The notes under the pieces were generated by a model. It saw nothing but the letters and a program-made list of their open reading frames with translations. It searched no databases and was not told the origin of the DNA. Of a stretch of DNA of 64,000 nt, positions 5,758-57,007 are shown piece by piece. Each line of letters starts with the position of its first letter. Position 1 is the first letter of the stretch. Made by a program: the position numbers and the translations under genes. The DNA comes from Curtobacterium citreum (GTDB taxonomy: Bacteria; Actinomycetota; Actinomycetes; Actinomycetales; Microbacteriaceae), in assembly GCF_006715175.1 (NCBI RefSeq), contig NZ_VFMQ01000001.1, forward strand, positions 2,914,001-2,978,000, in the 5' to 3' direction.

Positions 5758-5816
5758 CGACCCGATGCTGCCAGCCCGAGCCTGGGCTGTGTGCGGGACC
5801 GGACAGCGGGACCAGG

Positions 5817-43063: not shown

Positions 43064-43878
43064 GCAGCCCCTCGCGGGCGGCACCTGGCTGTACTCCGAG
43101 GAGCAGCCGGGCACGACCGGCCTCGTCGACCTGACGGGCCTCGGCTGGCCGGACGCCGAGCGCACCCCGGACGGGCTGCGGCTCGGCGCGACGTGCACGC
43201 TCGCGGCGCTGCTGCGGCTGACCCCGGAGCAACTGGCGCGCCTGGCCGCTCGTCGACCGGTGTGTGAACGCCCTGCTCGCGTCCTTCAAGGTGTGGAACG
43301 CGGCGACCGTCGGCGGCAACGTCGCGACGGCGCTGCCGGCGGGCGCGGTGACGGCGCTGCTCGTCACGCTCGACGCGACGGCCGTGGTGTGGACGACGGA
43401 CGGCGGGGAGCGCCGGGTGCCGGTCGCCGAGCTCGTGACGGGACCGCGCTCGACCACGCTCGCCCCGGGCGAGGTCGTCCGTGCGTTCGACGTGCCGGCC
43501 GCGGCGCTGCGCCAGGAGACCGGGTTCCGCCGGGTGTCGCTCAGCCCGCACGGCCGGACCGGGACGCTCGTCACCGCACGGTGGAGCAGCACCGACCGCG
43601 ACGCCGACACCGGCACCGGTGCCGGCACAGCCACCGGTGCCGGCTTCGTCCTGGTCGTCACCGGCGGCGTCCCGCGCCCGCTCGTGCTGCGCTGGGACAC
43701 CGTCCCGACTGCGGCCGCGGTGGACGCGGTCCTCGCCGGCCACGACGACTGGTACGACGACCCGCACGGCTCCCCCACCTGGCGACGCGGGGTCTCGCGC
43801 CGCTTCGCCGCGGAGCTCGTCGCCGAGGCCGGCGCGACCGGGCACAGCGGCAACCGTCGAGCCGGGGGCGCCCGATGA
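42993..43878 (+). pseudogene. Xanthine dehydrogenase FAD-binding subunit, frameshifted
   Basis: CoxM/XdhB-type FAD subunit of about 290 residues. The frame from ATG 42993 gives the normal N-terminus ([25 protein letters not shown] for FAD pyrophosphate) up to LTPEQLA near 43236; the continuation [34 protein letters not shown] is in the +1 frame from about 43243. One nucleotide is extra (or two are missing) between about 43228 and 43246. From there the second half runs intact to 43878 and overlaps the next gene by ATGA. The shifted frame happens to stay open into the next gene, so a chimeric protein could be made, but a functional FAD subunit could not. Sequencing error or real inactivation are both possible. 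Confidence 0.82.
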
Positions 43879-46664
43879 GGCTCACCGTCGACGGCACCGC
43901 CCTCGAGACCACCCCGCAGCCCGGCCAGGTCCTCCGCACCCTGCTCCGCGAGCACGGCGTGACCGCGGTGAAGAAGGGCTGCGACGCCGGTGACTGCGGT
44001 GCCTGCTCGGTCCTGCTCGACGGCGTCCCCGTGCACTCCTGCATCACGCCCGCCCACCGGCTCGAGGGCCGCACGGTCACCACCGCCGCTGGCCTCGGCA
44101 CCGCCGCCGACCCGCACCCCGTGCAGCGCGCGTTCGCCGAGGCGCCCGGCTTCCAGTGCGGGTTCTGCACCGCCGGGTACGTCGTCACGGCGTCGACGCT
44201 CGACGACGACCAGCTGACCGACCGGCACCGGGCGCTCAAGGGGAACCTGTGCCGGTGCACGGGGTACCGCGCGATCGAGGACGCCCTCGACGGGGTCCGC
44301 AACACCGCCTGCGCCACGGCCGGGGACGCCGTGGGGACCTCGGTCGCGGCACCCGCGGCGATGCGCATCGTCACCGGCGACGAGGAGTACACGCTCGACG
44401 TCCGCCGGACCGAGGCGCTCCTGCACCTCGCGGTCCTCGGCAGCCCGCACCCGCACGCCCGCGTCACCGCGATCGACACGAGCGCCGCCGAGGCGCTCCC
44501 GGGCGTGCACGCCGTGCTCACCCACCGGGACGACCCCGGTGTGCTGTTCTCCACCGGGCGGCACGACTCCCGGCTCGACGACCCCGACGACACCCGCGTG
44601 TTCGACACCGTCCTGCGGTTCCGCGGACAGCGCGTCGCGGCCGTCGTCGCGGAGAGCATCCGGGTCGCCGAGCAGGCCTGCGCCCTGCTCCGGGTCTCGT
44701 ACGAGGTGCTGCCGAGCGTGCACGACGTCGACGCCGCTCGGCGTCCTGGCGCGCCGCTGCTGCACGGCGACAAGACCACCGCCGAGCACCGCATCGCCGA
44801 GCCCGACCGGAACGTCGTCGCCGCCCTGCACGGCGGGACCGGAGATCTGGATGGCGCGCTCGCCGCGTCCGCGGCGACGGTCGAGGGCACGTGGTCGACG
44901 GGTCGCGTCTCGCACGCCGCGCTCGAGACGCACGCGACCCGCGGGTCGCTGGACCGGGACGGGAGGCTCGTGCTGCGGACCGCCACGCAGGTCCCGTTCC
45001 TGGTGCGGGACGAGATCGCGCACGTCTTCGGTCTCGACCCGGCCCGGGTGCGCGTGGTCGCGGGGCGCGTGGGCGGCGGGTTCGGCGGCAAGCAGGAGAT
45101 GCTCACCGAGGACCTCGTGACGCTCGCGGTGCTCCGCACCGGACGGACCGTGCAGTACGAGTTCAGCCGACGCGACGAGTTCACGATCGCGCCGACGCGG
45201 CACCCGATGCGCGTGCGGGTGCGGCTGGGCGCCGACGCGGACGGCCGGCTCACCGCGATGCACGTCGACCAGACGATGGACACGGGGGCGTACGGCAACC
45301 ACGGCGTCGGCGTGATGTTCCACTCGGTCAGCGAGTCGGTCGCCGTGTACCGCTGCCCGGTCAAGCGGGTCGACGCCGAGTCCGTCTACACGAACAACCT
45401 GCCGTCCGGGGCGTTCCGCGGGTACGGCCTCGGGCAGGTCGTCTTCGCGATCGAGTCGGCGATGGACGAGCTCGCGCGCCGCCTCGACCTGGACCCCTTC
45501 GAGCTGCGCCGCCGGAACGTCGTGGTGCCGGGGGACCCTCTCGTCGTCACCGACCCCGACGAACAGGACGACCTGCGCTGGGAGGGCAGCTACGGCCTCG
45601 ACCAGTGCCTGGACCTGGTCGAGGACGCCCTCCGCGCACCCCTGTCCGAGGTCCCCGCGATGGACGGGCCCGTGCTCGACGACTCCGGCGACTGGGCCCA
45701 CGGGACCGGGATCGCCCTCGCCGCGATCGCCACGATGCCGCCCCGCGGACACCACGCGCACGCGTCCGTCGAGGCCAACGCCGACGGCCGCTACCGGATC
45801 GGGGTCGGCACGGCGGAGTTCGGCAACGGGACCACGACCGTGCACACCCAGCTCGTCGCCACGGCGCTCGGCACCACGCCCGACCGGGTCGACGTGCACC
45901 AGTCCGACACCGACGCCGCACGGTACGACACCGGAGCGTTCGGGTCGGCGGGGGTGGTCGTCGCGGGCAAGGCGCTGTACGCCGCCGCGCTCGACCTGCG
46001 CGAGCAGATGACCGGCAGGGCGCTCACGCTCGTCGCGGCCCGGACGCCGCGCGCCGCCGTCGGTCCGCTCGGCCCCGCGGTCGCCGTGCTGCCCGACGGG
46101 GTGCGGGTCGGCGACGAGTTCGTCGGGCACGCCGAACTGCTCGCCGAGGGACCGCTCGTCGCCCACGGCAGCCACGACGGCACCCCGCGCTCGCTGGCCT
46201 TCACGGTGCACGGCGCCCGGGTGGCGGTGCACCGGCCGACCGGTGAGGTCCGCGTGCTCCACAGCGTGCAGGCCGTCGACGCCGGCACGGTCCTGAACCC
46301 CGAGCAGCTGCGCGGACAGGTCGAGGGTGGTGCCGCGCAGGCCATCGGCTCGACGCTGTACGAGGAGGTCGTGCTCGACGACGACGGTCGGGTGACGACC
46401 GACGCGTTCCGCTCCTACCGGGTGCCGAAGATCTCCGACGTGCCGCGCACCGATGTCCGGTTCGCCGTCACCTCGGACCCGCTCGGACCGCTCGGCGCGA
46501 AGTCCATGAGCGAGGCGCCGTACAACCCCGTCGCGCCGGCGGTCGCGAACGCCGTGCGGGACGCCCTCGGCGTCCGGCCGTACCGCCTGCCGATGACGCG
46601 TGACCGGGTCTGGGCGCTCCTCCAGGACGCGGCCGTGGACCGGACCGACGCCGGGGGTGCGTGA
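43875..46664 (+). CDS. Xanthine dehydrogenase, fused 2Fe-2S and molybdopterin subunit
   Basis: A 929-residue fusion of the small iron-sulphur subunit and the large molybdenum subunit, oxidising hypoxanthine/xanthine to urate. Residues 1-140: plant-type 2Fe-2S site Cys36, Cys41, Cys44, Cys56 and the second cluster Cys95, Cys98, Cys126, Cys128 (GFQCGFC, CRCTGY). Residues about 160 onward: molybdopterin domains with [34 protein letters not shown] and the C-terminal [24 protein letters not shown] containing the catalytic Glu. Start overlaps the FAD-subunit stop (ATGA). Substrate is inferred from uricase and XdhC neighbours. Confidence 0.93.
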
Positions 46665-47653
46665 TGTTCGAACTGGCACCGCGCCTCCTGGCCGTGCTCG
46701 ACGGCGGCGACCCCGTCGTCGTCGCGACGGCCGTCGCGATGTCCGGCAGCGCGCCCAGCGGGGTGGGGACGTCGATGGCCGTCCTGCCGGGCGGCCAGGT
46801 CGTCGGGACGATCTCCGGGGGCTGCGTCGAGGGGTCGCTGTTCGTGACCGCCGAGCAGGTGCTCGCGGACGGCGTGCCCGTGCTGGAGCGCTTCGGCTTC
46901 GACGACGACACGGACGACCCCGACGCGGTGTGGGCGCCGGCGCTCCGCTGCGGGGGCCGGGTCGAGGTCCTGGTGCGCCGGATCGTCCCCGGCGACCCCG
47001 TCGTGGACGTCCTGCGACGGGCGGCGTCGGGCGTGCCGACGTCGCTCACGGTCTCGCTCGAGCCCGACACGCTCGGTGCGGTCGTCACCGCGCCGGACGG
47101 GTGCCGCGGCCGGGTGTTCGTCGAGCGCGCCGACGCCCGGCCGCGGTGCATCGTCGTCGGGGCCGTGGAGTTCGCCGTCGCCGTGACGAACGCGGCGGCG
47201 GTGCTCGGGCACGCCGTGACCGTGGTCGACCCGCGGCCGGTGTTCCTGACCGACGAGCGCTTCCCCGCCGCGGACGAGCGCATCGTGGGGTGGCCGACGC
47301 GAGTGCTCGAGGGGCTGCCGATCGACGCGTCGACGGTGGTCGTGGTCCTCTCGCACGACGAGCGGTTCGACGCCGCGGTGATCGACCTCGCGCTCCGCCG
47401 CGGTGCCGGGTACGTGGGGGCGATGGGCTCCCGTGCGACGCACGAACGGCGGACGGCGGAGCTGCGCGCGCTCGGGACGCCGGACCTCGGGCGGCTGCGG
47501 TCCCCGATCGGGCTCGACATCGGCGCGGAGACCCCGGCCGAGATGGCGGTCGCGATCATGGCCGAGGTGATCGCCGTGCGTCGGGGTGCTCCGGGTGGGG
47601 CGCTCGCCGGCGGGGCGGGGCCGATCCACCGGCGGGCGGTGGCGGCGGGCTGA
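46664..47653 (+). CDS. xdhC: XdhC-family molybdenum cofactor insertion protein
   Basis: XdhC/CoxI-type chaperone (329 residues) that delivers sulphurated molybdenum cofactor to xanthine dehydrogenase. N-terminal XdhC domain: VVVATAVAMSGSAPSGVGTSMAV, GTISGGCVEGSLF with the conserved Cys. C-terminal Rossmann domain: RCIVVGAVEFAVAVTNAAAVLGHAVTVVDPR, TVVVVLSHDERFD, GYVGAMGSRATHERR. ATG 46664 overlaps the previous stop as TGATG; a GTG at 46661 would overlap by 4 nt. Last gene of the xdh operon, followed by a direct/inverted repeat element. Confidence 0.93.
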   Translation: MFELAPRLLAVLDGGDPVVVATAVAMSGSAPSGVGTSMAVLPGGQVVGTISGGCVEGSLFVTAEQVLADGVPVLERFGFDDDTDDPDAVWAPALRCGGRVEVLVRRIVPGDPVVDVLRRAASGVPTSLTVSLEPDTLGAVVTAPDGCRGRVFVERADARPRCIVVGAVEFAVAVTNAAAVLGHAVTVVDPRPVFLTDERFPAADERIVGWPTRVLEGLPIDASTVVVVLSHDERFDAAVIDLALRRGAGYVGAMGSRATHERRTAELRALGTPDLGRLRSPIGLDIGAETPAEMAVAIMAEVIAVRRGAPGGALAGGAGPIHRRAVAAG

Positions 47654-47674
47654 GCGGTGGGACGGGGCCGGTCT

Positions 47675-47731
47675 CGGGCGTGCCTGGTCGTTCCGGGCGT
47701 ACCTGGTCGGACGTCCCGCCCAGGTACGCCC
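47675..47731 (+). repeat. Direct-repeat plus inverted-copy element after xdhC
   Basis: CGGGCGTGCCTGGTCG (47675) recurs 19 bp later as CGGGCGTACCTGGTCG (47694). The second copy pairs with an inverted copy: GGGCGTACCTGG (47695-47706) with CCAGGTACGCCC (47720-47731). Same layout as the class C elements but a different sequence. It lies between convergent genes. Confidence 0.8.
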
Positions 47732-47776
47732 GGTCCCGCTCTCCGTCCCGCCCGCTCTGGCGAGCGCCCGCGGGCG

Positions 47777-48472
47777 TCAGTCGTCGCGCACGTACCCGGT
47801 GTCGGGGTCGATCTCCGCGAGGAAGGAACGGAGGTCGCTGCGCATCCGCTCGTCGTCCGCGCACAGCCGGAGGTTCGTGGCAGCGAGCTCGTCGGGCGCT
47901 GGTCCCGGGGCGGAGGACGAGAGCGTCCCGCCGAAGCCGTAGCCGGGGTTCGGCCCGGTCAGCCACGTGACCTGCGTGCTGCTGCCCCGCACGCTGACGA
48001 GGAAGCGCTCGCCGTCGACCTCGAGCTCCCACTCCGCCGGCACCGAGCGCGAGCCGTCGGGCCAGGTCGTCCGCCCACCGTCGTGCCAGCCGAAGGGTCC
48101 GGCGAGCACGGTGAGCCGGGCGTGCTCCCGCGGGTCGGACAGCTGCCATCCGTAGTTCGTGGGGACGACGTGGCTCACACCGTCGACGTCGAGACGCTCC
48201 CGGCTGTCGCCGAGGCCGTCCGTGTGGACCTCCTCGTCCGTCCAGACCAGGAACTGGCTCACCCAGTCGTCGGCGTCCTCCGGTGGTGCGAACAGCCACC
48301 ACTGGGGCGCACCGGTCGAGGGCAGGCGGACCTCGAGCCGAGCCGAGGGAGCTCCCGAGTGCGAGAAGGTCACGCCGAGGACACCGCCCTCGGCCCGGAC
48401 GTCGGAGCACCGGTAGCCGTCCCGTGGCGGAGCGGCCCGGAGCGCGGCGACGATCGCCTGGTCGGTCAGCAC
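47777..48472 (-). CDS. Hypothetical soluble protein (231 residues)
   Basis: No family recognised. The protein has no signal or membrane segment and is rich in Trp, Asp and Gly in the middle (APQWWLFAPPEDADDWVSQFLVWTDEEVHTDG), suggesting a beta-rich fold. GTG 48472 is chosen because the upstream part is Arg/Pro-rich, overlaps a repeat element and lacks coding character; AGGA lies 8 nt before it. Flanked by repeat elements on both sides. Confidence 0.65.
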   Translation of the reverse strand: MLTDQAIVAALRAAPPRDGYRCSDVRAEGGVLGVTFSHSGAPSARLEVRLPSTGAPQWWLFAPPEDADDWVSQFLVWTDEEVHTDGLGDSRERLDVDGVSHVVPTNYGWQLSDPREHARLTVLAGPFGWHDGGRTTWPDGSRSVPAEWELEVDGERFLVSVRGSSTQVTWLTGPNPGYGFGGTLSSSAPGPAPDELAATNLRLCADDERMRSDLRSFLAEIDPDTGYVRDD

Positions 48473-48540
48473 GCTCCGATCCTGCCAGGGCGGTCGCGGC
48501 GGCGGCGGGCTGCGGGGGCGCGGGGCGTCGCCGTCCCGCC

Positions 48541-48625
48541 GAGACGCCTCCGAGCGCGCGAGGCGCCGCCGAATCCGGGGGCGTCTCGCACACCTGGAGG
48601 CGTCTCGTGCATCCCGGGTGTCCCG
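48541..48625 (-). repeat. Direct-repeat plus inverted-copy element after the amidohydrolase gene
   Basis: Read on the minus strand, CGAGACGCCTCC and CGAGACGCCCCC are 19 bp apart, preceded by a degenerate CGGGACACCC unit, and are followed by the inverted copy GGAGGCGTCTC (minus-strand reading of 48541-48551, pairing with 48596-48606). It follows the 3' end of the gene at 48654-49946 in that gene's orientation. Confidence 0.75.
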
Positions 48626-48653
48626 CATCCGGGCGCGTGACGGCCCGCCGCCG

Positions 48654-49946
48654 TCACACCGGCGTGCGCGCCAGGCGCTCCGCGAGCCGCGCCGCGATCT
48701 CGCGCTCGTCCCCCGTCACGAGCCGGTGGTCCCGGACGACCACGCGCCCGCCGACGACCACGTGCTTCGGCCGCCGCCCCGGGGACGCCCAGAGCAGCCC
48801 GCCGACCGGGTCGGCAACGCCTGCGTCCGCGACGCCCGAGACGTCCCACACGCACAGGTCGCCCGCGGAGCCCGCACCGAGGTGCCCGAGCTCCGGGCGT
48901 CCGAGTCCCGCCGCCGACCCCTCGGTCATCATCCCGAGCACCTGCCGTGCCGGGAGCTGCTGCCCGACGAGCGCCGACACCTGCATTGCCAGCCGGCCGT
49001 CGGCGAGCAGGTGCCCCGCGTCGTTGCTCCCGCCTCCGCTCGTCCCGAGGCCCACCGGGATCCCCGCGTCGGCGAGCGCCGCGACCGGGGCGATCCCCCA
49101 CCCCATCGGCACGTCGCACCCCGGCGCGTGCGTCGCGCTCACCCCGGCGTCCGCGAGCCGGGCGACCTCGTCGGCGGTGACGTCGCACAGGTGCGCGATC
49201 GTCACGTCCGGTGCGAGCCACCCCCACTCCTCGAGCAGGTCGAGCGGCCGCCGCCCGTACCGCTCGAGGGCGATGGCGGTGTCAACCTGCTCGTTCGCCT
49301 GGGTCCGCCGGCGCAACCCGTGCTGCGCCGCGACCTCGCCGAGCGCCCGGAAGGTCGCCTCACCGTCCGAGTGCACCCCGGCCGGCCCCACCGCGACCTG
49401 GAGCCGTCCGTCCGGATCCACCCCGCCGACGGCGCGCTCGTGCAGCAGCCGCCCGGCGATCGCGTCCGCCGACGCGGCGGCATGCTCCGGGTCGTCGCGT
49501 GCCGACCCCCGGACGAACACGAGCCGTCCGCCGAGCCCGCGGACGGCGTCGACCGTCGCGCCCGCAAGCACCACGGTGTCGTCGGTGGTCGCGTCCGCGG
49601 GCCAGTTCAGGTGGTGGTCGGCGATCGTCGTGACGCCGGACAGGAGGCCCTCCGCGGCTCCGGCGGACGCGGCCAGTCCGTACAGCTCGGGATCGTGCCC
49701 CGCCCGGGCGTACGCCGCGGCCATCGTCGGGAGCCAGTCCGCCATCGGGACACCGCGCGTGCCCGGCAGCGTCCGGAACGCGGTCTGCAGCAGGTGGTGG
49801 TGGGCGTTGACGAGGCCGGACGTCACGACGCATCCGGACGCGTCGAGCGTGGTCTCGAGGTCGCTGCCGTCGTCGACGACGACGTCACCGTCCCGTTCGG
49901 TGCGGGGGTCGACGAGGACACGGCGGGCACCGGTGACGGTCAGCAT
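48654..49946 (-). CDS. Amidohydrolase-family protein with two substituted metal ligands
   Basis: A 430-residue member of the TrzN/8-oxoguanine-deaminase-like amidohydrolase branch. The first metal motif NAHHHLLQT (His49, His51) and the later AHLCDV His252 are present, and Glu219 of the HxxE motif is kept. The usual strand HTHLAET is replaced by RTQANEQ (metal His to Gln216), and the usual GxDGxASND Asp is Ser303 in GLGTSGGGSND. A standard mononuclear zinc site therefore cannot form as in its relatives. It may be a pseudoenzyme or have changed chemistry. A GlnR-like half-site lies upstream. The neighbouring purine genes suggest guanine or 8-oxoguanine derivatives. Confidence 0.85.
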   Translation of the reverse strand: MLTVTGARRVLVDPRTERDGDVVVDDGSDLETTLDASGCVVTSGLVNAHHHLLQTAFRTLPGTRGVPMADWLPTMAAAYARAGHDPELYGLAASAGAAEGLLSGVTTIADHHLNWPADATTDDTVVLAGATVDAVRGLGGRLVFVRGSARDDPEHAAASADAIAGRLLHERAVGGVDPDGRLQVAVGPAGVHSDGEATFRALGEVAAQHGLRRRTQANEQVDTAIALERYGRRPLDLLEEWGWLAPDVTIAHLCDVTADEVARLADAGVSATHAPGCDVPMGWGIAPVAALADAGIPVGLGTSGGGSNDAGHLLADGRLAMQVSALVGQQLPARQVLGMMTEGSAAGLGRPELGHLGAGSAGDLCVWDVSGVADAGVADPVGGLLWASPGRRPKHVVVGGRVVVRDHRLVTGDEREIAARLAERLARTPV

Positions 49947-49984: not shown

Positions 49985-50028
49985 GGCGGATGCCTCGGGG
50001 GTGCCTGTGTACGCTCGCACCAGGTCGG

Positions 50029-50631
50029 ATGGGGGTGGACGACGTGGGTGGTCTCGGGTCGGACGGTGTCGTGGCGCGGTCGATGCTCGGCATCCTCTCG
50101 AAGCGCATCGGCGCGGCGGTGGTCGTGGCCCTGACGATGTCGCTGTCGACTGCTTGTGCAGGAGGAGAACCCGTGGAGTCCGGCGCATCCCTGCACCGCG
50201 GCGTCTCGTCGGACGCCGCGAGACGGTCGGTCACCGACGTGGTGGACCGCACCGCGGCGATCGTCGACGGGGACTGGAAGGTCCTCAGCGGGCCGCGACT
50301 CGGTCTGTGCCCGGGCTCCGACGGGTCCGGCGATGCCGAGGACCCGGGCGGTGTCACGTGGGTGTACATCGCGCAGCGGCCCGGCTCGGACGACCCGGAG
50401 GACGATCTCCGCAGGGTCGAGGCGTTCTGGCAGCGCCTCGGTATCACGACGAAGCGGTACCGCAGCGGTGGCGACGACCCGGACCTCGGGGTGTCCGGAC
50501 GGGGCGGTCCGCTCACCAGCATCGACTTCCTCTCGTCGGCCGAGGGGGGCTACAGCATCGACGGTGGGTCACCGTGCGCGGACGGCGACTTCGGCGAACT
50601 CGCCACGGGCACGCCCTCGCCGGCCCCCTGA
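50029..50631 (+). CDS. Hypothetical exported protein
   Basis: About 200 residues. The segment MLGILSKRIGAAVVVALTMSLSTAC looks like a signal peptide with a weak lipobox, so the true start may be the ATG at 50083; ATG 50029 and GTG 50044 are alternatives, the last with a GGGGGTGG ahead. The mature part, with TDVVDRTAAIVDGDWKVLSGPRLGLCPG and DDLRRVEAFWQRLGITTKRY, resembles actinobacterial small lipoproteins of unknown role. Its 3' end overlaps the convergent BLUF-TetR gene by 82 nt. Confidence 0.65.
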   Translation: MGVDDVGGLGSDGVVARSMLGILSKRIGAAVVVALTMSLSTACAGGEPVESGASLHRGVSSDAARRSVTDVVDRTAAIVDGDWKVLSGPRLGLCPGSDGSGDAEDPGGVTWVYIAQRPGSDDPEDDLRRVEAFWQRLGITTKRYRSGGDDPDLGVSGRGGPLTSIDFLSSAEGGYSIDGGSPCADGDFGELATGTPSPAP

Positions 50632-51635
50632 CCCGTCGCCCATCCCGTCCGCAACTGCTCGGCAGCGGTCGCGAAGGACGTGGCGATGTCCGGGTCGGGG
50701 TCGAACAGGTTCTGGATCCGCAACCCGTCGAAGAGCGCCAGGAGCTGGTGCGCCCCGCGGACCGGGTCGGTGGTCGACGGTTCCCGTCCGGTCGCGACGT
50801 CGTGCGCCAACGCCTGCTGGATCGAGGATCGGAACGCGCGGTAGCTCACCAGGAACGCCTCACCGGCCGCCTCGCCCGGGTCGGCAGCGGGGGCGAGTGC
50901 GGAGACGATGAGGCGGTCGAGTGCCGGGTCAGCCGAGAACGCCACCACGAGCGCACGCAGCCACGGCACCGTCCCCTCGGTCGCGGCGAGCGGGGCGAGC
51001 GGCGTCGTCACCTGCTCGAGCCACGTCGCGAGCGTCGCAGCGAGCAGGTGCGGCGTGGTCGGGAAGTGCGCCGTCACCGTCTCCTCGGACACGCCGGACC
51101 GCTCGGCGACGAGGCCGGACGTGCAGCGAGACGGCCCCACGTCCCGCAGGACGCCGATCGCCCCCTGCAGCACGCGAGTGCGGACCGGCTCGCTCGACCG
51201 ACGGGTCGAGAGCTGCTCGGGCGGGGTCCTGCGGAACCACTCCAGCAGGGCGTGTGCCCGCGAGGTCTCGGCTGCGGGGTCCGCCGGTCGTTCCGGGTCG
51301 AACAGGTCCACGTAGCCCGGGGTCGCGTGCACCGCGGGGTCGTCGGTCCGGAACGCGATCGTCCAGTCGTCGAACGACCGCTCCTCGACCGGGTCGTCGA
51401 GGAGGACCTGCACGTCGACGTTCGCCGGGTCGGCGGCCACCTCGTGCACGCGCTGCCGGACGATGTCGGCGGGGCCCTCGACGATCCCGAGCACGTTCGC
51501 GTCGTGCAGTGCGAGCACCCCCGTGATGCCGAGCTCGGCGTTCCTCGCCCGCTCGACGGAGACGAGGTGAGCGAGGTCGTCGTGACTCAGTCGGCCGGTG
51601 CGTGCGGTCGTGAAGACGAGGCAGCGGAGGGTCAT
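50550..51635 (-). CDS. BLUF-domain protein fused to a TetR-type DNA-binding domain
   Basis: A 361-residue fusion. Residues 1-95 follow the BLUF (blue-light FAD sensor) fold: LVFTTARTGRLSHDDLAHLV, RNAELGITGVLALHDANVLGIVEG, RSFDDWTIAF. Numbered as in PixD-type BLUF domains, the photoactive Tyr at 8 is Phe8 and the Gln at 50 is Gly50, while Asn32 is kept, so the classic light switch is unlikely. Residues 151-210 are a TetR helix-turn-helix (VLQGAIGVLRDVG, TSGLVAERSGVSEETVTAHFPTTPHLL) and 210-330 a TetR-like helical domain. The start overlaps the stop of the SpoIIE-type phosphatase gene (ATGA). Role: probably a transcriptional regulator sensing flavin state or another ligand. Confidence 0.83.
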   Translation of the reverse strand: MTLRCLVFTTARTGRLSHDDLAHLVSVERARNAELGITGVLALHDANVLGIVEGPADIVRQRVHEVAADPANVDVQVLLDDPVEERSFDDWTIAFRTDDPAVHATPGYVDLFDPERPADPAAETSRAHALLEWFRRTPPEQLSTRRSSEPVRTRVLQGAIGVLRDVGPSRCTSGLVAERSGVSEETVTAHFPTTPHLLAATLATWLEQVTTPLAPLAATEGTVPWLRALVVAFSADPALDRLIVSALAPAADPGEAAGEAFLVSYRAFRSSIQQALAHDVATGREPSTTDPVRGAHQLLALFDGLRIQNLFDPDPDIATSFATAAEQLRTGWATGQGAGEGVPVASSPKSPSAHGDPPSML

Positions 51636-52417
51636 CGGTCGGCTCCGTCAGGATCGGTCGTGGCTGCTGCGGTGGCGGGGTCCACGTCACGTCGGACCGC
51701 GAGCACCGTGAGGTCGTCGCCCACGACTGCGGGCACGTCGTCGAGGAACGCCCGGAGCGTGTCGTCGAGCGCGGGCGCGTCGACGAGCCGCCGGGCGAGC
51801 GCGGTCAGGGTCTCGAAGTCGGCGTCGGGGAGCTCGAGGATCCCGTCGGACGCGACGAGCAGCACGTCGCCCGGCCCGAGCGCGTCGTGCCGCGGCAACC
51901 GCGGGAAGCCCCGGGGCTGCAGCCCGATCGGCAGGTCGGCGGACGGGATGCGCCGGGTCGAGCCGTCCGTGCGGGCGATCGCGGCGAACCCGTGGCCGGC
52001 GTCGACGAACTCGAGTGCGCCGTCGGCCAGGCGGAGTCGGGCGTGGAAGAGCGTGGCGAACGCCGAGGCCCGCTCCAACCGGCCCCGCACGGCACCCTCC
52101 GCCCCCTCCACCGCGACGCCGGGGGTCTCGCGGACCAGGGCGTCGAGCGCGCCGAGCAGGTGGGCGGCCAGCAAGCCCGCCGGGACGCCCTTGCCCATCA
52201 CGTCGCCGACCGTGACCACCAGGCTGCGGCCGTCCGGGGCCGTCGCACACTGTGCGAGGTCGCCGGACACCCCCGCAGCGGCCCGGGCGACGTGTGCCGC
52301 AGACCACCCCGTGCCCGCGCGACCGTCCGGCAGCAGCGCAGCCTGCACGGTCCGGAGACGCGAGGCCTGGTCGAGCCCGGCGTCCTCGTCGTCGTAGACG
52401 TCCTGCAGTGAGACCAC
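51632..52417 (-). CDS. PP2C-type (SpoIIE/RsbU-like) protein phosphatase
   Basis: A 261-residue single-domain SpoIIE-type serine phosphatase, of the kind that controls anti-sigma antagonists in the general stress response. Metal-site motifs: VSGDLAQ, VGDVMGKGVPAGLLAAHLLG, FVDAGHGF, VLLVASDGILEL and DDLTVLAVR, all with their Asp residues. GTG 52417 is preferred: TACATT about 7 nt upstream fits a -10 for a leaderless message; the longer reading to 52453 has no support. No sensor domain is attached; the sensor may be the coupled BLUF-TetR protein. No partner anti-sigma factor lies in the window. Confidence 0.88.
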   Translation of the reverse strand: MVSLQDVYDDEDAGLDQASRLRTVQAALLPDGRAGTGWSAAHVARAAAGVSGDLAQCATAPDGRSLVVTVGDVMGKGVPAGLLAAHLLGALDALVRETPGVAVEGAEGAVRGRLERASAFATLFHARLRLADGALEFVDAGHGFAAIARTDGSTRRIPSADLPIGLQPRGFPRLPRHDALGPGDVLLVASDGILELPDADFETLTALARRLVDAPALDDTLRAFLDDVPAVVGDDLTVLAVRRDVDPATAAATTDPDGADR

Positions 52418-52467
52418 ACCGCAATGTACCGCTCCGCCGTTCCGACGGGGCACCCGGCACGCTCCGG

Positions 52468-52510
52468 GAAACCCCGCGGTGACACCCGCGAAACACGCGC
52501 ACCCTAGGTT
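52468..52510 (+). promoter_or_regulatory. Leaderless promoter with GlnR-like sites
   Basis: GAAAC (52468), GTGAC (52479) and GAAAC (52490) are each 11 bp apart, three perfect sites of a GlnR box. The -10 TAGGTT (52505-52510) ends 7 nt before the ATG at 52517, implying a leaderless transcript. Confidence 0.7.
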
Positions 52511-52516
52511 CGCCCC

Positions 52517-53914
52517 ATGTCACAGACCCTGATCCGCGCCGGCTGGGTGCTGACCGCAGCACCGGACGACGCCGCCACCCCCGCCGCGATCCGCGACGGC
52601 GCCGTCCTGCTCGACGGGGACCGCATCGCCGCCGTGGGCACCTTCGCGGAACTGTCCGCCGCCCACCCGGACGCCCCGGTCCGCGGGGGCGCGTACGACG
52701 TCGTGACCCCGGGGTTCGTGAACACGCACGGGCACTTCAGCGAGGGGCTCATCACCGGCATCGGCTCGCAGTACACCCTGTGGGAGTGGCTCACGGCGCT
52801 GATCGGCCGCGTCAACCCGGTGATGACCCGCGAGAAGGCCTACGCCGGCACCGTGCTGCAGGGCATCCAGCTGCTCCGGAGCGGTGTCACGACCGCGAAC
52901 GACATGTTCTGCGCGGACCCGATGCCCGACGAACCGGCGACCCCCGGGGTCGTCGCGGCACTCGAGGACCTGGGCCTGCGCGGCGTGGTGTCGTTCGGCT
53001 CCGGGGACGTCGACCGGGACTTCGGTGCGACGCCGATCCTCGAGGAGTTCGAGGCCCTGCGCGAGGCCGCCGACGCCAGCCGGTACAGCACGTTCCGGGT
53101 CGGGGTGTCGTCGATCGGGCGGTACACCGACGACACCTGGCAGGAGCACGTCGACTACGCGGTCGCCGGTGGCCACGGCGTGCACGTGCACTTCCACGAG
53201 GTCCGCGAGGAGGTCACCTCAGCCCGGCAGCGCACCGGCCGCACGGCCATCGGGCACGCCGAGGCCACGGGCATGTTCCAGGTGCCGGTGATCGCGGCGC
53301 ACAGCGTCTGGGTCGACCGGGAGGACCGCGAGCGCTACGCGTCGAACGGCGTCGGCGTCGCCCACAACCCGGTCGCGAACGGCATCCTGGCGAGCGGCAT
53401 CGCCCCGGTCGCGGAGCTCCGGGCCCTCGGCGTCCCGGTCGGCATCGGCGTGGACGGGCCGGCGTCCAACGACTCGCAGGACTTCCTGCAGGCGATGAAG
53501 ACGGCGGCGCTCCTGGCGCGCGTCCGGGACCTGCAGGCCACGGCCATGAGTGCGCGCGAGGCGTTCGAGATGGGGACCATCGGCGGCGCCCGCGCGCTGC
53601 GGATGGACGCCGAGATCGGCTCGCTCGAGCCGGGCAAGCGCGCCGACCTGGTCGTGTTCGACGGCGACTCCCCCACGCTGGCGAACGTGCACGACCCGTA
53701 CCAGGCGGTCGTCTTCGTCGCCGGCAGCCGTGAGGTCCGCGACGTCTGGGTCGACGGCGAGCTGAGCGTCGCCGACCACGACGTCACACGGGTGGACGTG
53801 CGCGAGGCGGTCGCCCGCGCCCGCCCCCTCGCCCGTCAGCTGGTCGCCGAGGCGGGGCTGGAGCGCCTCTCGGCGCTCACCGGCGGCGCACTCGACGACA
53901 CCGAGCGTCCGTAG
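52517..53914 (+). CDS. Amidohydrolase (8-oxoguanine/guanine deaminase-like)
   Basis: A 465-residue metal-dependent deaminase/hydrolase, with every active-site residue of the branch: NTHGH (His71, His73), HVHFHE (His225, Glu228), AAHSVWV (His262) and GIGVDGPASND (Asp313). TIM-barrel strands and a C-terminal beta sandwich with KRADLVVFDGDSP are standard. It is transcribed alone from a promoter with GlnR-like sites, which suggests nitrogen release from an aminated heterocycle. The substrate (guanine, 8-oxoguanine, isocytosine-like or S-adenosylhomocysteine-like) cannot be fixed from the sequence. Confidence 0.87.
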   Translation: MSQTLIRAGWVLTAAPDDAATPAAIRDGAVLLDGDRIAAVGTFAELSAAHPDAPVRGGAYDVVTPGFVNTHGHFSEGLITGIGSQYTLWEWLTALIGRVNPVMTREKAYAGTVLQGIQLLRSGVTTANDMFCADPMPDEPATPGVVAALEDLGLRGVVSFGSGDVDRDFGATPILEEFEALREAADASRYSTFRVGVSSIGRYTDDTWQEHVDYAVAGGHGVHVHFHEVREEVTSARQRTGRTAIGHAEATGMFQVPVIAAHSVWVDREDRERYASNGVGVAHNPVANGILASGIAPVAELRALGVPVGIGVDGPASNDSQDFLQAMKTAALLARVRDLQATAMSAREAFEMGTIGGARALRMDAEIGSLEPGKRADLVVFDGDSPTLANVHDPYQAVVFVAGSREVRDVWVDGELSVADHDVTRVDVREAVARARPLARQLVAEAGLERLSALTGGALDDTERP

Positions 53915-53920
53915 GGGCGG

Positions 53921-53994
53921 TCCCCGACCCGGGTCGGGGACGCGGACGGACGGGAGGCGGTGCGCACGTCGTGCGCACCGCCTCCCGTCCGTCC
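53921..53994. terminator. Two consecutive palindromes, the second of family A
   Basis: TCCCCGACCCGGGTCGGGGA (53921-53940) is a perfect palindrome 6 nt after the stop codon. It is followed by a family A element with 24-bp perfect arms (53944-53967 and 53971-53994) and a 3-nt loop. They lie between convergent genes. Confidence 0.85.
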
Positions 53995-54013
53995 GTCCCC
54001 GGCCCCGGCCCCG

Positions 54014-54967
54014 TCAGAGTTCCAGGACCAGGCGCGGACAGCCGCGCCGCGCGCGCGAGACGCAGACCATCATGCTGCGGTCGTCGGCCTGCTCCTCGGG
54101 ACTGAGGACGGTGTCGCGGTGCTCCACCGCACCCTCGAGCACCGGGGTCTCGCACGTGCCGCACGTGCCCTCGCGGCAGGAGGACAGCACGAACGCGCCG
54201 GCCTCCTCGGCGACCTCGAGCAGGGTCCGGTCGGCGGGGACCGTGACGGTGACGCCGGTGACCGCGAGCTCGACCTCGAACGGCTCGCCGGGGGCGTCCA
54301 CGTCGGCGGCCGGCTCGAAGCGCTCGACCCGGAAGCTGCCGGCCGGCCAGTGCGCGGCCGCGGCCTCGACCGCGTCCATGAGGCCGCGAGGGCCGCAGCA
54401 GTACACGACGGCGTCGCGCGGCTCGGCGAGGAGCCCGACCACATCGAGCCGCGGGTGCTCGTCGGCGACCGCGAGGGCGACCCGGTCGGGGTGCGCCGCG
54501 ACGAGGTCGTCGACGAAGGCCATCCGGTCGCGGGTGCGCCCGGCGTAGTGGAGCTCCCACGGCGTCCCGGCACGCTCCGCGGCGGCGATCATCGCGGTGA
54601 TCGGGGTGATCCCGATGCCGCCGGCGACGAAGACCGCGGGGCGGGACGGGTCGAAGCCGAAGTGGTTGCGGGGACCGGCGACCGCGACCTCGGTGCCGAC
54701 CGCCAGGCCGTCGTGCACGGCCGCCGAGCCGCCGCGCCCGTCCGGTTCCCGGAGCACCGCGATCCGCCAGTGCCCCTCGGGGGTCGTGCCGACCAGGGAG
54801 TACTGCCGCTCCGTGCCCGGCGCGACCTCGAGGTCGACGTGCGCGCCCGGCTCCCAGTCCGGCAGCGCGGGGTCGTCGAGGGGCGCGAGGTCGAGCGCGA
54901 CGACGTCGGTCGCGACCGTCCGGCGGGCGGCGACGCGCAGCCGCCGGCGCTCGGGCGCCCCGGTCAC
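54014..54967 (-). CDS. Oxygenase reductase (FAD/NAD and C-terminal 2Fe-2S, VanB/phthalate-dioxygenase-reductase type)
   Basis: A 317-residue electron-transfer protein. Residues 10-100: ferredoxin-reductase flavin domain with GAHVDLEVAPGTERQYSLVG (RQYSL is the flavin motif). Residues 105-220: NAD domain VFVAGGIGITPITAMIAAA and VVYCCGPRGLMDAV. Residues 235-317: plant-type 2Fe-2S with SSCREGTCGTCETPVLEG and a fourth Cys in MMVCVS. Such reductases feed a Rieske or other oxygenase, but no oxygenase gene is visible nearby. GTG 54967 overlaps the regulator stop codon (GTGA). Confidence 0.9.
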   Translation of the reverse strand: MTGAPERRRLRVAARRTVATDVVALDLAPLDDPALPDWEPGAHVDLEVAPGTERQYSLVGTTPEGHWRIAVLREPDGRGGSAAVHDGLAVGTEVAVAGPRNHFGFDPSRPAVFVAGGIGITPITAMIAAAERAGTPWELHYAGRTRDRMAFVDDLVAAHPDRVALAVADEHPRLDVVGLLAEPRDAVVYCCGPRGLMDAVEAAAAHWPAGSFRVERFEPAADVDAPGEPFEVELAVTGVTVTVPADRTLLEVAEEAGAFVLSSCREGTCGTCETPVLEGAVEHRDTVLSPEEQADDRSMMVCVSRARRGCPRLVLEL

Positions 54968-55581
54968 GCGACCACTCCGGCGCGCGGGGTCTCCTTGACC
55001 ACGATCATGTGGAAGCGGCTGCCGTCCGCGCTGCACCACCGGTGGCCGGTGCCGCCGCGGTAGTAGGCGGAGTCGCCCGGCCCCAGGCGGAGCGGCTCCT
55101 GTCCGCGGAGGTCGAGCAGGACGTCGCCGGCGAGCACGGTGAGGAACTCGTCCTCGCGGTGCTCGAAGTACTCGCCGAGGTCGGTGTTGTCCCCGGTCCA
55201 CTCGAGCGGTTCGAAGGCGTGCGGTCCGGCGTGCACGAGCAGCCGCGCTTCGCCGCTCGAGAACGGCCCGCGGGCGCCCTCCCCCGCCCGGATTACCTCG
55301 GGGGCGCGGTCGTCCTGCTCCGGGCGCTCGGGGGCGCCGGCGGCGAGCAGTTCGACCTGGGTGGTGCCGAGCGCGGCGGCGATCTTCTCGAGCGACACCA
55401 TGCTCGCGCGGGAGTGTCCGCGTTCGACCTGGCTGAGGAACGGGTGGGACAGGCCGGTGGTCTCGGCCACCTGCACGAGCGTCAACCGGGCGGCGCGACG
55501 ACGTGCGCGGATGTGCTCGCCGATGCGCTGCGTCTGCTCGTCGACGACGCGGTCGTTCTCGGTGGGGGTCGCGGTGCTCAC
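54964..55581 (-). CDS. XRE-family regulator with cupin domain
   Basis: A 205-residue regulator. Residues 18-75: helix-turn-helix (IGEHIRARRRAARLTLVQVAETTGLSHPFLSQVERGHSRASMVSLEKIAAALG). Residues 110-200: cupin sensor (GEYFEHREDEFLTVLAGDVLLDL, GDSAYYRGGTGHRW). HipB/PuuR-like regulators of this type often control catabolism of amines and small acids. It is divergent from the CodA-like operon, with a palindrome (55678-55696) and GlnR-like sites between, and translationally coupled to the reductase gene. Start GTG 55581. Confidence 0.9.
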   Translation of the reverse strand: MSTATPTENDRVVDEQTQRIGEHIRARRRAARLTLVQVAETTGLSHPFLSQVERGHSRASMVSLEKIAAALGTTQVELLAAGAPERPEQDDRAPEVIRAGEGARGPFSSGEARLLVHAGPHAFEPLEWTGDNTDLGEYFEHREDEFLTVLAGDVLLDLRGQEPLRLGPGDSAYYRGGTGHRWCSADGSRFHMIVVKETPRAGVVA

Positions 55582-55629
55582 GCGGACTCCTCTCGGTGTC
55601 GTTCCGGGTCTGAGCGGGTGTCACACACG

Positions 55630-55696
55630 GCAACCGCCGTGAAACGAGGGGGAAACACACCCGCCCTAGCATCGGAGATGTTGATGCGATCAACAT
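55630..55696 (+). promoter_or_regulatory. Promoter of the CodA-like operon: GlnR-like sites, -10 and repressor palindrome
   Basis: GCAAC (55630), GAAAC (55641) and GAAAC (55652) are 11 bp apart. A -10 TAGCAT (55667-55672) follows. Over the expected start site lies ATGTTGAT-GCG-ATCAACAT (55678-55696), perfect 8-bp arms, likely the site of a pathway repressor such as the divergent XRE-cupin protein. Confidence 0.65.
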
Positions 55697-55720
55697 TCTC
55701 ACACAACCCGGGAGGCCGCC

Positions 55721-57007
55721 ATGGACTCGTCAGCACCGCGTCCGGTCGACCTGCTGCGCGGTGCGCTGCTGCACGACGGACGGCTCGTCGACGTCGCGAT
55801 CTCGGGTGACACCGTGGCCGAGGTCGCCCCGGCCGGCACGCTCCGCGGCTCGGTCGACGGCACACTCGACCTCGCCGGACGACTGCTCCTGACCGCCCCG
55901 GCGGAGCCGCACGCGCACCTCGACAAGGCCCTGAGCGCCGACGCGATCCGCCCGCCGCTCGGCGACCTCGGTGCCGCGATCGCGTCTTGGTCCGCCCACG
56001 CCACGACCATGACCGTCGACGAGATCGCCGACCGCGCCCGCACCGCAGCGCTGACCATGCTCGCCGCCGGCACCACCGCGGTCCGCAGCCACGTCGACGT
56101 CCTGAGCGGTCGCCGCAGTGTCGACGACGCCCCGGCCCCCGTCGAGTCCGCCGTGCGCGGTGCGCAGGCCCTCGTGCGGGTCCGTGACGAGCTCGCCGGG
56201 CTGATGGACCTCGAGCTCGTGGCCCTGGCCGGACCGCTCGCCCCCGACCACCACGTCGAGGCCGTGCTGGCGTGCGGCGTCGACCTGGTCGGCGGCGCCC
56301 CGCACCTGGCCGAGGACCCGCTCGCCGACGTCGACCGGCTGCTGGCCCTGGCCGACCGGCACGGGGTCGGCGTCGACCTGCACACCGACGAGAACCTCGA
56401 CGGACCGGTCACGCTCGACCACTTCGCCCGCGCCGTCAGTGCTCGCCGTGATCCGGGCACGGACGGCCGCACCTGGACCGCCGGGCACTGCGTCCGGCTC
56501 GGCACCCTCGGGCCCGAGCGCCGCGCGGAGGTCGTCGCCGACGTCGCCGCGGCGGACCTCGGCATCGTCACGCTGCCGATCACGAACCTGTACCTGCAGG
56601 GCTGGCAGCACCCGGTGTCCACGCCCCGCGGGCTCACCGCGATCCAGGCGCTCACGGCGGCCGGCGTCCGCGTGGCCGCCGGCGCCGACAACGTCCGCGA
56701 CCCGTTCAACCCGGTCGGCCGCAGCGACGCACTCGAGACCGCGTCCCTGCTCGTGACGGCCGGCCACGTGACGCCGGACCAGGCGTACGCGATGGTGAGC
56801 GACACCGCCCGGAGCGTGATGGGCCTCCCGGCCGCCGGTCCCGTCCCCGGACGGCGAGCCGACCTGCTCGCGATCGCCGCGACCAGCGTCACCGACGCCG
56901 TCGCGAACGCCCCGGCCGACCGCATCGTCCTGTCCCGCGGGCGGCTCGTCGCCCGCACCGAGGTGCGCACCACCGTCGCCGCGACCGCGGCGCCCGTGCC
57001 CGCCTGA
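55721..57007 (+). CDS. CodA-like amidohydrolase (cytosine-deaminase family)
   Basis: A 428-residue cytosine-deaminase/AtzC-type hydrolase. Metal and catalytic residues match the CodA pattern: PHAHLDK (His64, His66), DLHTDEN (His221, Glu224), AGHC (His256) and AGADNVRDPF (Asp323). Substrates in the family include cytosine, isocytosine, creatinine and N-alkylated triazines. GGGAGG (55710-55715) precedes ATG 55721. It opens a plus-strand operon with an ABC transporter, an FAD oxidase, a creatininase-like enzyme and a PNPOx-like protein, so it likely acts on an imported N-heterocycle. Confidence 0.88.
   Translation: MDSSAPRPVDLLRGALLHDGRLVDVAISGDTVAEVAPAGTLRGSVDGTLDLAGRLLLTAPAEPHAHLDKALSADAIRPPLGDLGAAIASWSAHATTMTVDEIADRARTAALTMLAAGTTAVRSHVDVLSGRRSVDDAPAPVESAVRGAQALVRVRDELAGLMDLELVALAGPLAPDHHVEAVLACGVDLVGGAPHLAEDPLADVDRLLALADRHGVGVDLHTDENLDGPVTLDHFARAVSARRDPGTDGRTWTAGHCVRLGTLGPERRAEVVADVAAADLGIVTLPITNLYLQGWQHPVSTPRGLTAIQALTAAGVRVAAGADNVRDPFNPVGRSDALETASLLVTAGHVTPDQAYAMVSDTARSVMGLPAAGPVPGRRADLLAIAATSVTDAVANAPADRIVLSRGRLVARTEVRTTVAATAAPVPA

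Follow-up and report, generated by a model that had tools for sequence, protein, structure and literature searches.

The Gene Pair

The window analyzed here is a stretch of 64,000 nucleotides of Curtobacterium citreum (contig NZ_VFMQ01000001.1, positions 2,914,001 to 2,978,000 of the forward strand). On its reverse strand it carries a regulator that joins a BLUF domain to a TetR body in a single chain, and, just upstream, a phosphatase of the SpoIIE type (Table 1). An earlier note on this DNA gave the reading frame, strand and coordinates of the regulator gene correctly, and also placed its start within the stop codon of the phosphatase, which is the case: the ATG at 51635 and the stop at 51632 overlap as ATGA. 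All seven orthologous loci, that of the window among them, have the same four-base overlap.

Table 1. Features of the BLUF-TetR/phosphatase locus, in window coordinates
Feature	Coordinates	Strand	Basis
BLUF-TetR single-chain regulator, 361 aa	50550..51635	-	Pfam, alignment, AlphaFold2, Foldseek
TetR C-terminal BetI-type TetR_C_6 dimerization/ligand region, residues 206-333	50637..51020	-	Pfam, Foldseek FadR/TtgR
TetR-type helix-turn-helix, residues 151-200	51036..51185	-	TetR_N below cut-off, predicted helices, motif count
BLUF domain, residues 5-93	51357..51623	-	Pfam, 2hfn/1x0p alignment, family table
ATGA overlap, phosphatase stop and regulator start	51632..51635	-	7/7 orthologous loci
SpoIIE/PP2C-type Ser/Thr phosphatase, bare catalytic domain, ~261 aa from the probable GTG start	51632..52417	-	Pfam, structure matches, metal Asp
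Possible -10 box TACATT, 5 nt upstream of the GTG	52423..52428	-	By-eye alignment, 7 upstream regions

A longer phosphatase frame reaches 52453, but no matching start is found in most orthologues. An alignment of the seven loci by eye shows a TANNNT box upstream of the operons of the clade to which the window protein belongs (the window clade). The GTG at 52417 is probably the true start, given the box just ahead of it and the missing alternative. The closeness of that possible -10 box would also make the transcript of the pair leaderless. The stretch 52418-52720 ahead of the phosphatase extends into a divergently oriented neighbor. The window pair and one other (L042) sit among genes that are absent around the other five, and those five have a common context.

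The BLUF Domain

Pfam BLUF (PF04940) matches residues 5-93 of the window protein with 58.8 bits (cut-off 25), and the domain aligns without gaps to Slr1694/PixD (2hfn, residues 1-94) and to Tll0078 (1x0p, residues 2-93). In this alignment F8, V48 and G50 stand where Tyr8, Phe48 and Gln50 are expected, and A71 and N72 replace Arg71 and His72. N32, D69 and W91 are retained, here and in 7 of 7 members of the window clade. Hence the light switch made by Tyr8 and Gln50 is lost and Asn32 is kept, as the earlier note had read from the sequence. Besides Gln50, the window clade has lost Tyr8, Ser10, Arg71 and His72. By alignment N32 and D69 correspond to Asn30 and Asp67 of OaPAC, which are flavin contacts according to a passage of PMC11533990; a table there adds Lys29, Arg63 and Met92. 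Phe48 may be another flavin contact, although the portions of PMC10799861, PMC11533990, PMC4630285 and PMC9853863 consulted for it held no useful passage.

The AlphaFold2 model of the whole protein, built on a 34-sequence alignment (mean pLDDT 79, pTM 0.53), has a first domain of beta-alpha-beta-beta-alpha-beta-beta order and an all-helical second domain. The BLUF pocket is modeled at moderate confidence, since the pLDDT of the BLUF half is only 65-73 for blocks 11-20, 21-30 and 41-50. Foldseek matches this half to structures of the PixD and AppA type (best E 2.9e-7), with TM by target of 0.65-0.76 against single-domain entries. Structure prediction of this half, on which the earlier note had staked its reading, thus returned a BLUF fold for the window clade. 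With Phe8 and Gly50 in place, the domain is, judged by its residues, a BLUF-fold domain rather than a PixD-type photoreceptor.

The BLUF-TetR Family

A BLUF-TetR single chain had been called unusual, and both halves of it are real by Pfam, by matches to solved structures and by AlphaFold2/Foldseek. Searches for the architecture found at least 63 fusions, from 45 of 66 Curtobacterium genomes, and one on a Frigoribacterium plasmid; the family is confined almost entirely to one genus. At family and phylum level, 398 and 396 genomes were sampled with E limits of 1e-45 and 1e-30 and at most five candidates scored per genome, so that weaker fusions could be missed. Eight plasmid records matched, of which three were opened and one was used for residues. 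The 63 are those with BLUF coverage among the matches listed, two of them incomplete (L091, at a contig end, and L095, whose match extends to residue 232).

Glycine occupies the Gln50 position in 64 of 64 proteins (the 63 Curtobacterium matches listed and the Frigoribacterium copy). Most of the listed proteins (53 of 63) have Cys48 for Phe48 with Tyr8 retained, making a pocket of Tyr8, Cys48 and Gly50, and these also keep Arg71 and His72. Since residues alternate along a beta strand, the Cys48 thiol should face the flavin. All 53 listed proteins of clades B, B' and D retain Tyr8, N32, W91 and M93, and the Frigoribacterium copy likewise combines Cys48 and Gly50 with Tyr8, Asn32 and Trp91. Tyr8 is absent from 10 of the 63 listed, seven in the window clade and three in one other. 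The 34 BLUF domains sampled outside the family are all canonical: four belong to the remaining BLUF genes of the window genome, 29 come from the best-scoring loci and one from genome G151 (36 table rows, two genes being present twice).

The earlier note spoke of a degenerate BLUF domain. The word misleads, because all 63 listed members have Gly in place of Gln50 and because purifying selection acts on the BLUF half. For this half the pooled dN/dS, from 18 hand-picked pairs (two each in A and B, one each in B' and C, 12 in D), is 0.03-0.24 across clades, the window-clade value (2 pairs) being 0.13. With glycine family-wide and the half so constrained, the domain appears to be rewired rather than decaying.

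The TetR Half and DNA Binding

TetR_C_6 matches residues 249-315 with 29.9 bits (cut-off 27), and TetR_N stays under its cut-off of 24 both on the protein (19.6 bits) and in the genome search (23.4 bits). By Foldseek the helical half resembles TetR regulators, FadR for one (TM by target 0.74-0.77), and also TtgR; positions 143-316 of the family profile, helix-turn-helix within, match TtgR as well (E 2.2e-10). AlphaFold2 predicts the helices of the helix-turn-helix at 151-166, 173-180 and 184-190, with pLDDT block means of 88-96 over residues 151-200. An LYxHF-like recognition-helix motif occurs in 0 of the 63 BLUF-TetR proteins listed; of the 30 best-scoring ordinary TetR_N stretches in the window genome (out of 42, of unequal lengths), 19 have it.

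Pooled dN/dS of the helix-turn-helix is 0.14-0.64, which is still purifying selection. In the window clade it is 0.32 against 0.13 for BLUF (2 pairs). Clade C excepted, the helix-turn-helix is the less constrained of the two in each clade (A, B, B', D). A dead helix-turn-helix was considered and is not claimed, as the ratios speak of weaker but real constraint. Identities by region were dropped because insert columns inflated the values for the linker and the helix-turn-helix.

The upstream alignment holds no inverted repeat common to all seven window-clade regions. Perfect inverted repeats with 6-base arms, sought in the 300 bases upstream of the 63 listed BLUF-TetR genes, were common to no more than four loci (maximum of three in 20 shuffles); in clade A this stretch falls within the phosphatase gene. 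Where regulator and phosphatase are divergent, a 31-bp inverted repeat lies between them at 4 of 4 loci, which are close relatives, and repeats with arms of at least 8 arise in 24-30 of 200 shuffles of these intergenic regions. The repeat is a candidate operator only. As the helix-turn-helix is confidently predicted and under purifying selection, the protein may still bind DNA.

The Phosphatase and Its Linkage to the Regulator

The window phosphatase scores 100.5 bits with Pfam SpoIIE (PF07228, cut-off 25) and matches the SpoIIE and Rv1364c structures. Its four metal-site aspartates (610, 628, 746 and 795; such ligands are named in a passage of PMC3517971) are retained in 11 of 11 linked copies. 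The enzyme was said to be without a sensor domain of its own, and indeed it is bare, while other SpoIIE copies have N-terminal regions: the genome has four other matches, and of the three inspected two show, by eye, clear GAF-like or membrane N-terminal regions. Elsewhere on the chromosome, unlinked to the phosphatase, are adjacent STAS and HATPase_c_2 matches (G000:C1:1767136-1767423 and 1767492-1767833), both above curated cut-offs. From its presence in the genome one may guess that this STAS protein is the substrate.

At E up to 1e-25, the 66 genomes yield 11 phosphatase matches above 200 bits, and all others are below 150 bits. All 11 close orthologues adjoin a BLUF-TetR gene, seven upstream on the same strand with the ATGA overlap and four divergently. 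In the phosphatase tree, flagged because its long branches meet, the 11 linked copies make up a clade of their own (support 100/98), and the six core and two membrane-type copies included fall outside it. At 3 of the 4 divergent loci the phosphatase is followed on the same strand by a gene for a sigma-70 family factor; for one plasmid this is borne out by its annotation in PLSDB. Being related by descent, the 11 loci represent only two independent arrangements.

Seen from the regulator, the linkage is much less general. No close phosphatase orthologue lies in the flank, short in a few loci, of 52 of the 63 listed BLUF-TetR genes (clades B', C and D), so the family does not need this phosphatase. 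The coupling proposed earlier therefore stands as a conserved one for the close orthologues, including the window clade, where its absence from homologues would have told against it, and fails as a general pairing. The neighbors in clade D are varied, as seen on clustering 622 selected ORFs around BLUF-TetR genes, and a membrane-type SpoIIE gene lies near two clade-D loci. Two phosphatases near clade-D genes, at L053 and L071, cluster in the tree with a membrane-type core copy and were left out of the linked family.

How the Pair May Work

We infer that BLUF-TetR is the sensory partner of the phosphatase. A TetR body, a dimer if it follows the rest of its family, would bear the N-terminal BLUF domain. 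In the window clade the domain should no longer run a PixD-type photocycle, because Tyr8 and Gln50 are both absent; it would respond instead to the state of the flavin, to a ligand or to nothing, and would set the output of the phosphatase. The phosphatase would then dephosphorylate an RsbV-like STAS protein, and a sigma factor would be freed from its RsbW-like anti-sigma. For the window clade we prefer direct protein control, of the kind RsbT exerts on RsbU or RsbQ on RsbP; a passage of PMC12143880 describes activation of SpoIIE-type phosphatases by partner proteins. Functional coupling as such is fairly probable, and the chances that the two proteins make up one signaling module feeding a sigma partner switch are evenly balanced. 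Direct control of the phosphatase by protein contact, taken as a step by itself, is plausible but falls somewhat short of even. For it we counted the want of a common upstream repeat and of an LYxHF-like motif, and a dN/dS of the helix-turn-helix above that of BLUF; against it, the confident helix-turn-helix and the 31-bp repeat, which argues for transcriptional control in the divergent clade. The two look like a signaling pair peculiar to their lineage, in which the usual light switch has been abandoned.

BLUF-TetR could alternatively be an autoregulating repressor that binds DNA and controls transcription of the phosphatase (of a phosphatase-sigma operon in the divergent clade), the phosphatase being a target gene and not a binding partner. 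This is a tentative reading, yet a serious one. The TetR fold with its confident helix-turn-helix, the TtgR match that spans it, the divergent gene order with a repeat at every such locus and the sigma factor behind the phosphatase at most of them speak for it. They have to be set against the missing repeat in the window clade, the recognition-helix motif absent throughout the listed family, a TetR_N score under the cut-off, the looser constraint on the helix-turn-helix outside clade C, and, for the divergent regions, the repeats that arise in part of the shuffles and the close kinship of the four loci.

An unlikely reading is that the domain remains a photoreceptor of another kind: lacking Gln50 it would form no red-shifted state (the shift in ordinary BLUF domains is about 10-15 nm) but would still photoreduce flavin, and light would act through a flavin radical. 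Slr-BLUF Gln50Ala, by the account in part of PMC4555020, has no red-shifted state and a flavin semiquinone-tyrosyl pair that outlives that of the wild type; LOV receptors without glutamine still signal (PMC9098866); and clades B, B' and D keep Tyr8, N32, W91 and M93 throughout. But with Phe8 in 7 of 7 members of the window clade the usual electron donor is gone, Arg71 and His72 have gone too, and Y7, Q51 and W92 of BlsA are reported in PMC6695109 to be essential for light-regulated motility and solubility. Finally, that BLUF is a vanishing remnant, with the genes linked by chance hitch-hiking, would suit the residues lost besides Gln50 in the window clade but is very improbable given the low dN/dS of BLUF in every clade, the retention of N32, D69 and W91, and a linkage kept at 11 of 11 loci over two gene orders.

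A broader picture is rather speculative. A natural BLUF lineage may have abandoned the glutamine switch, with Cys48 and Gly50 replacing Phe48 and Gln50 jointly in most members; this Cys48/Gly50 pocket may work through cysteine or flavin-radical chemistry, switching in response to light or redox state and handing the signal to the TetR body; and the window clade, with the tyrosine also lost, may have turned into a sensor or adaptor that is blind to light and coupled to a SpoIIE phosphatase.

Relation to Known Systems

Literature searches found no paper on the BLUF-TetR/phosphatase system. The window protein resembles PixD/Slr1694 and AppA in its predicted fold, in the ungapped alignment to residues 1-94 of Slr1694 and in Asn32, Asp69 and Trp91, and differs from them by Phe8, Val48, Gly50 and output through a TetR body; the positions of Arg71 and His72, lost in it, are Arg84 and His85 in AppA. 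With BetI-type members of the TetR family it has in common TetR_C_6 above cut-off and a FadR/TtgR-like fold, but it carries an N-terminal BLUF domain, and its TetR_N score and recognition helix depart from theirs as described above. RsbT is a GHKL protein, and we know of no BLUF or TetR partner of such phosphatases. RsbQ is an alpha/beta-hydrolase, according to a passage of PMC12143880. Like RsbU-RsbT and RsbP-RsbQ of Bacillus, the window pair consists of a SpoIIE-type phosphatase and a separate partner protein, in a genome with a STAS/HATPase_c_2 pair; unlike them, its phosphatase has no N-terminal sensor domain.

The BLUF glutamine is regarded as central to the photocycle, and its mechanism remains a matter of debate. 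Slr1694 Gln50Ala (Fudim 2015, as cited in part of PMC4555020) is likewise a BLUF domain without the central glutamine, but an engineered one, whereas BLUF-TetR lacks this residue naturally and in all members listed; most of these also have Cys48, and the window clade is without the tyrosine as well. Glutamine-deficient LOV receptors (PMC9098866) are also natural members of a flavin-photoreceptor family without a glutamine long held essential. They have the LOV fold and thioadduct chemistry and are reported as likely photoreceptors, whereas BLUF-TetR is at most a putative one.

In closing, Curtobacterium and a Frigoribacterium plasmid hold a natural family with 64 listed members without Gln50, alongside ordinary BLUF proteins in the same genomes. 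The family offers material for testing BLUF signaling without the glutamine, without the tyrosine, or with a cysteine in the pocket. If the coupling is true, a sensor fold of flavin type would here be wired in a new way to a phosphatase that acts on sigma-factor control.

The gene pair and its fold

The earlier note had described a single chain that joins a BLUF domain to a TetR regulator and whose gene overlaps that of a SpoIIE-type phosphatase. This arrangement is confirmed, Pfam, AlphaFold2 and Foldseek supporting the folds, and it is now enlarged to a family with 63 members read in Curtobacterium and one in Frigoribacterium. By Pfam, the window protein carries BLUF at residues 5-93 (58.8 bits, cut-off 25) and TetR_C_6 at residues 249-315 (29.9 bits, cut-off 27), with TetR_N at residues 156-200 under its cut-off (19.6 bits vs. 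24); the SpoIIE match of the phosphatase scores 100.5 bits. In a sequence search against solved structures, the one chain matches both BLUF proteins and TetR regulators. Both domains are also predicted by AlphaFold2 (34 sequences, mean pLDDT 79, pTM 0.53), the BLUF half being moderate in parts (pLDDT block means 65-73 at residues 11-30 and 41-50) and the placement of one domain against the other not trustworthy at this pTM. Foldseek matches to the predicted model begin with PixD-type structures (best E 2.9e-7), TetR proteins first appearing at ranks 20-24.

Next to the pair, a small lipoprotein-like gene with no Pfam match is convergent with the BLUF-TetR gene; the cluster to which it belongs counts 17 members in the vicinity of 8 BLUF-TetR genes, some of them arranged in tandem. 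Judged from the ORF sequences, the flanks (42993-49946 and 52517-57007) resemble a purine or pyrimidine catabolism region, with putative xanthine dehydrogenase-like and several amidohydrolase-like ORFs.

Taken singly, the BLUF fold, the TetR body and the SpoIIE phosphatase are all known components. Among BLUF proteins, 64% are short and 34% carry EAL domains, according to a review (PMC4844311). Among the papers listed, judged by title and start of abstract and with most subscription papers outside the search, none describes a BLUF-TetR protein, a SpoIIE phosphatase linked to BLUF, or a BLUF domain that naturally lacks Gln.

Positions of the BLUF-TetR genes and their neighbors (window positions unless another molecule is named)
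Feature	Position	Strand	Remark
SpoIIE-type phosphatase	51632-52417	minus	GTG start backed by orthologues; mechanical ORF extends to 52453
BLUF-TetR protein, 361 residues	50550-51635	minus	ATG overlaps phosphatase stop as ATGA
Lipoprotein-like gene	49990-50631	plus	
Second BLUF-TetR gene of the window genome (L043)	G000:C1:3238258-3239265		
BLUF-TetR gene of Frigoribacterium sp. NBH87 (L258)	about 5007-6065, plasmid NZ_CP043651.1		outside Curtobacterium

Distribution of the family

Among the matches listed in a search with the window protein, 63 cover the BLUF half; they come from 45 of 66 Curtobacterium genomes, and two are incomplete. In a tree they fall into five clades: the window clade A (7) and clades B (4), B' (3), C (3) and D (46). 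The second gene of the window genome encodes a protein 44% identical to the window protein, with Tyr8, Cys48 and Gly50 (PixD numbering), and has no relative of the window phosphatase within the fetched 5-kb flanks. Fusion-covering matches came from Curtobacterium only in a family-level search of 398 genomes (E up to 1e-45, 85 genera, no more than five candidates scored per genome) and from the window genome only at the phylum level (396 genomes, E up to 1e-30). Plasmids yielded eight records with family members, seven from Curtobacterium and one from Frigoribacterium; the family therefore extends beyond Curtobacterium, on a plasmid. The BLUF domain of the Frigoribacterium copy was missed in annotation because the annotated CDS (5277-6065) covers the C-terminal part only and much of the BLUF half lies antisense to an annotated hypothetical protein.

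Linkage to the phosphatase

In the 66 genomes, 11 matches to the window phosphatase exceed 200 bits, all others listed staying below 150 bits, and every one of the 11 adjoins a BLUF-TetR gene. In clade A the phosphatase gene precedes the BLUF-TetR gene on one strand and overlaps it as ATGA (7/7); in clade B it is divergent (4/4). The other 52 BLUF-TetR genes (B', C and D) have no such neighbor within the fetched flank. In a tree flagged for long branches, the linked phosphatases form one clade (100/98) that leaves out the core copies sampled. All 11 retain the aspartates matching SpoIIE Asp610, 628, 746 and 795. The window phosphatase has the catalytic domain and a short lead only; two of the other SpoIIE copies of the genome have long N-terminal regions, GAF-like or membrane by eye. 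The idea of a system in which the regulator replaces a sensor domain on the phosphatase is partly supported.

At three of the four clade B loci the phosphatase is followed by a sigma-70 family factor (Sigma70_r2, 60.9 bits), none being seen in the fetched stretch of the fourth, and the PLSDB annotation of plasmid NZ_CP126261.1 lists a sigma-70 factor, a PP2C phosphatase and a BLUF protein. STAS and HATPase_c_2 proteins, with which a phosphatase of this kind usually works, are encoded next to each other in the window genome.

A further, looser TetR-SpoIIE neighborhood is found where stand-alone TetR relatives, resembling the C-terminal half of the fusion, are arranged tail-to-tail with SpoIIE phosphatases whose N-terminal regions are long and membrane-like (L182, L194, L179, L180 and L181 of genomes G003, G006, G007, G015 and G056; in G055 judged from coordinates only). 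Sigma factors of the clade B type are also present at two loci, each roughly 4 kb or less from a stand-alone TetR relative (L187, 1-429, 51% identity; L167, 902-1381, 42%).

Partner protein or transcriptional regulator

According to one study, RsbT activates RsbU by ordering a linker through which the phosphatase domains dimerise, and RsbP is activated by its partner RsbQ in a way that the authors predict to be similar (PMC12143880). By analogy, BLUF-TetR would be an RsbT- or RsbQ-like partner for the sensor-less window phosphatase. Alternatively, it may control transcription, which fits clade B better: a 31-bp inverted repeat, the candidate operator CCGGGATGGTG-9-CACCATCCCGG, lies between the divergent genes at all four loci (L085, L086, L089 and L090), which are close relatives, with one arm mismatch in L086. 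Clade A fits less well, since no common palindrome was found upstream of its seven loci, and a TANNNT box a few bases before the phosphatase GTG (by eye in six of the seven: window 52423-52428 and L037-L041) suggests a leaderless transcript.

The helix-turn-helix also bears on DNA binding. Of 30 ordinary TetR_N stretches from the window genome (the best-scoring 30 of 42), 19 contain an LYxHF-like recognition motif, which none of the 63 BLUF-TetR proteins or eight stand-alone relatives has; mean net charge is -1.2 in the ordinary set vs. -2.65 in the fusion set, the stretches being unequal in length. These differences indicate that the TetR part derives from a subfamily with an unusual helix-turn-helix, which makes DNA binding less likely. 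Constraint on the helix-turn-helix is weaker than on BLUF in A, B, B' and D, and slightly stronger in C. Control as a partner protein and control of transcription could both hold.

Pooled dN/dS by clade (18 author-chosen pairs; one or two pairs each for A, B, B' and C)
Region	A	B	B'	C	D
BLUF	0.13	0.03	0.24	0.20	0.12
Helix-turn-helix	0.32	0.14	0.64	0.18	0.17
TetR C-terminal domain	0.22	0.11	0.15	0.12	0.10

Flavin and switch residues

By these values the BLUF half is not in decay. In the window protein it aligns with Slr1694 (2hfn) ungapped across residues 1-94, so the earlier assignment of Phe8 to Tyr8 and Gly50 to Gln50, with Asn32 retained, is correct. The flavin contacts Asn30 and Asp67 in the hydrogen-bond table of OaPAC (PMC11533990) correspond to Asn32 and Asp69, both kept in all seven clade A orthologues. 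The proposed relay Arg84 and His85 of AppA (PMC10278134) corresponds to residues 71 and 72, where all seven have Ala or Gly and Asn, respectively. With Asn32 and Asp69 kept and residues 8, 50, 71 and 72 changed, flavin binding is possible and the known photocycle is not to be expected in this clade.

Gly50 is present in all 63 BLUF-TetR proteins and in the Frigoribacterium copy. Tyr8 is retained in 53, Phe8 being found in clades A (7) and C (3), and clades B, B' and D (53) carry Cys at position 48, clade A carrying Val and clade C Ala. Outside the fusion family, 34 of 34 BLUF domains (33 from Curtobacterium and one from a different genus of Microbacteriaceae, mostly best-scoring) have Tyr8, Phe48, Gln50 and Met93, and the nearest non-fusion BLUF protein met (in genome G043) is canonical. 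Most likely, then, a single loss of Gln50 coincided with or followed the fusion, and Tyr8 disappeared later, in two separate losses if the position of clade C, a long branch grouped with B and B' at support 94/83, is correct.

Engineered Gln50Ala BLUF forms flavin radicals and no red-shifted state (PMC4555020), and LOV receptors that naturally lack their glutamine are considered likely to work as photoreceptors (PMC9098866). Apart from 48 and 50, clades B, B' and D retain most positions that do not vary among the 34 control domains; the exceptions are 46 and 55, with conservative or partial changes at 52 and a few others. The pairing of Phe48 to Cys with Gln50 to Gly looks like a rewired pocket rather than wear. 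This natural Gln-less BLUF family with Cys48, mostly beyond the window, is the most interesting part of the finding.
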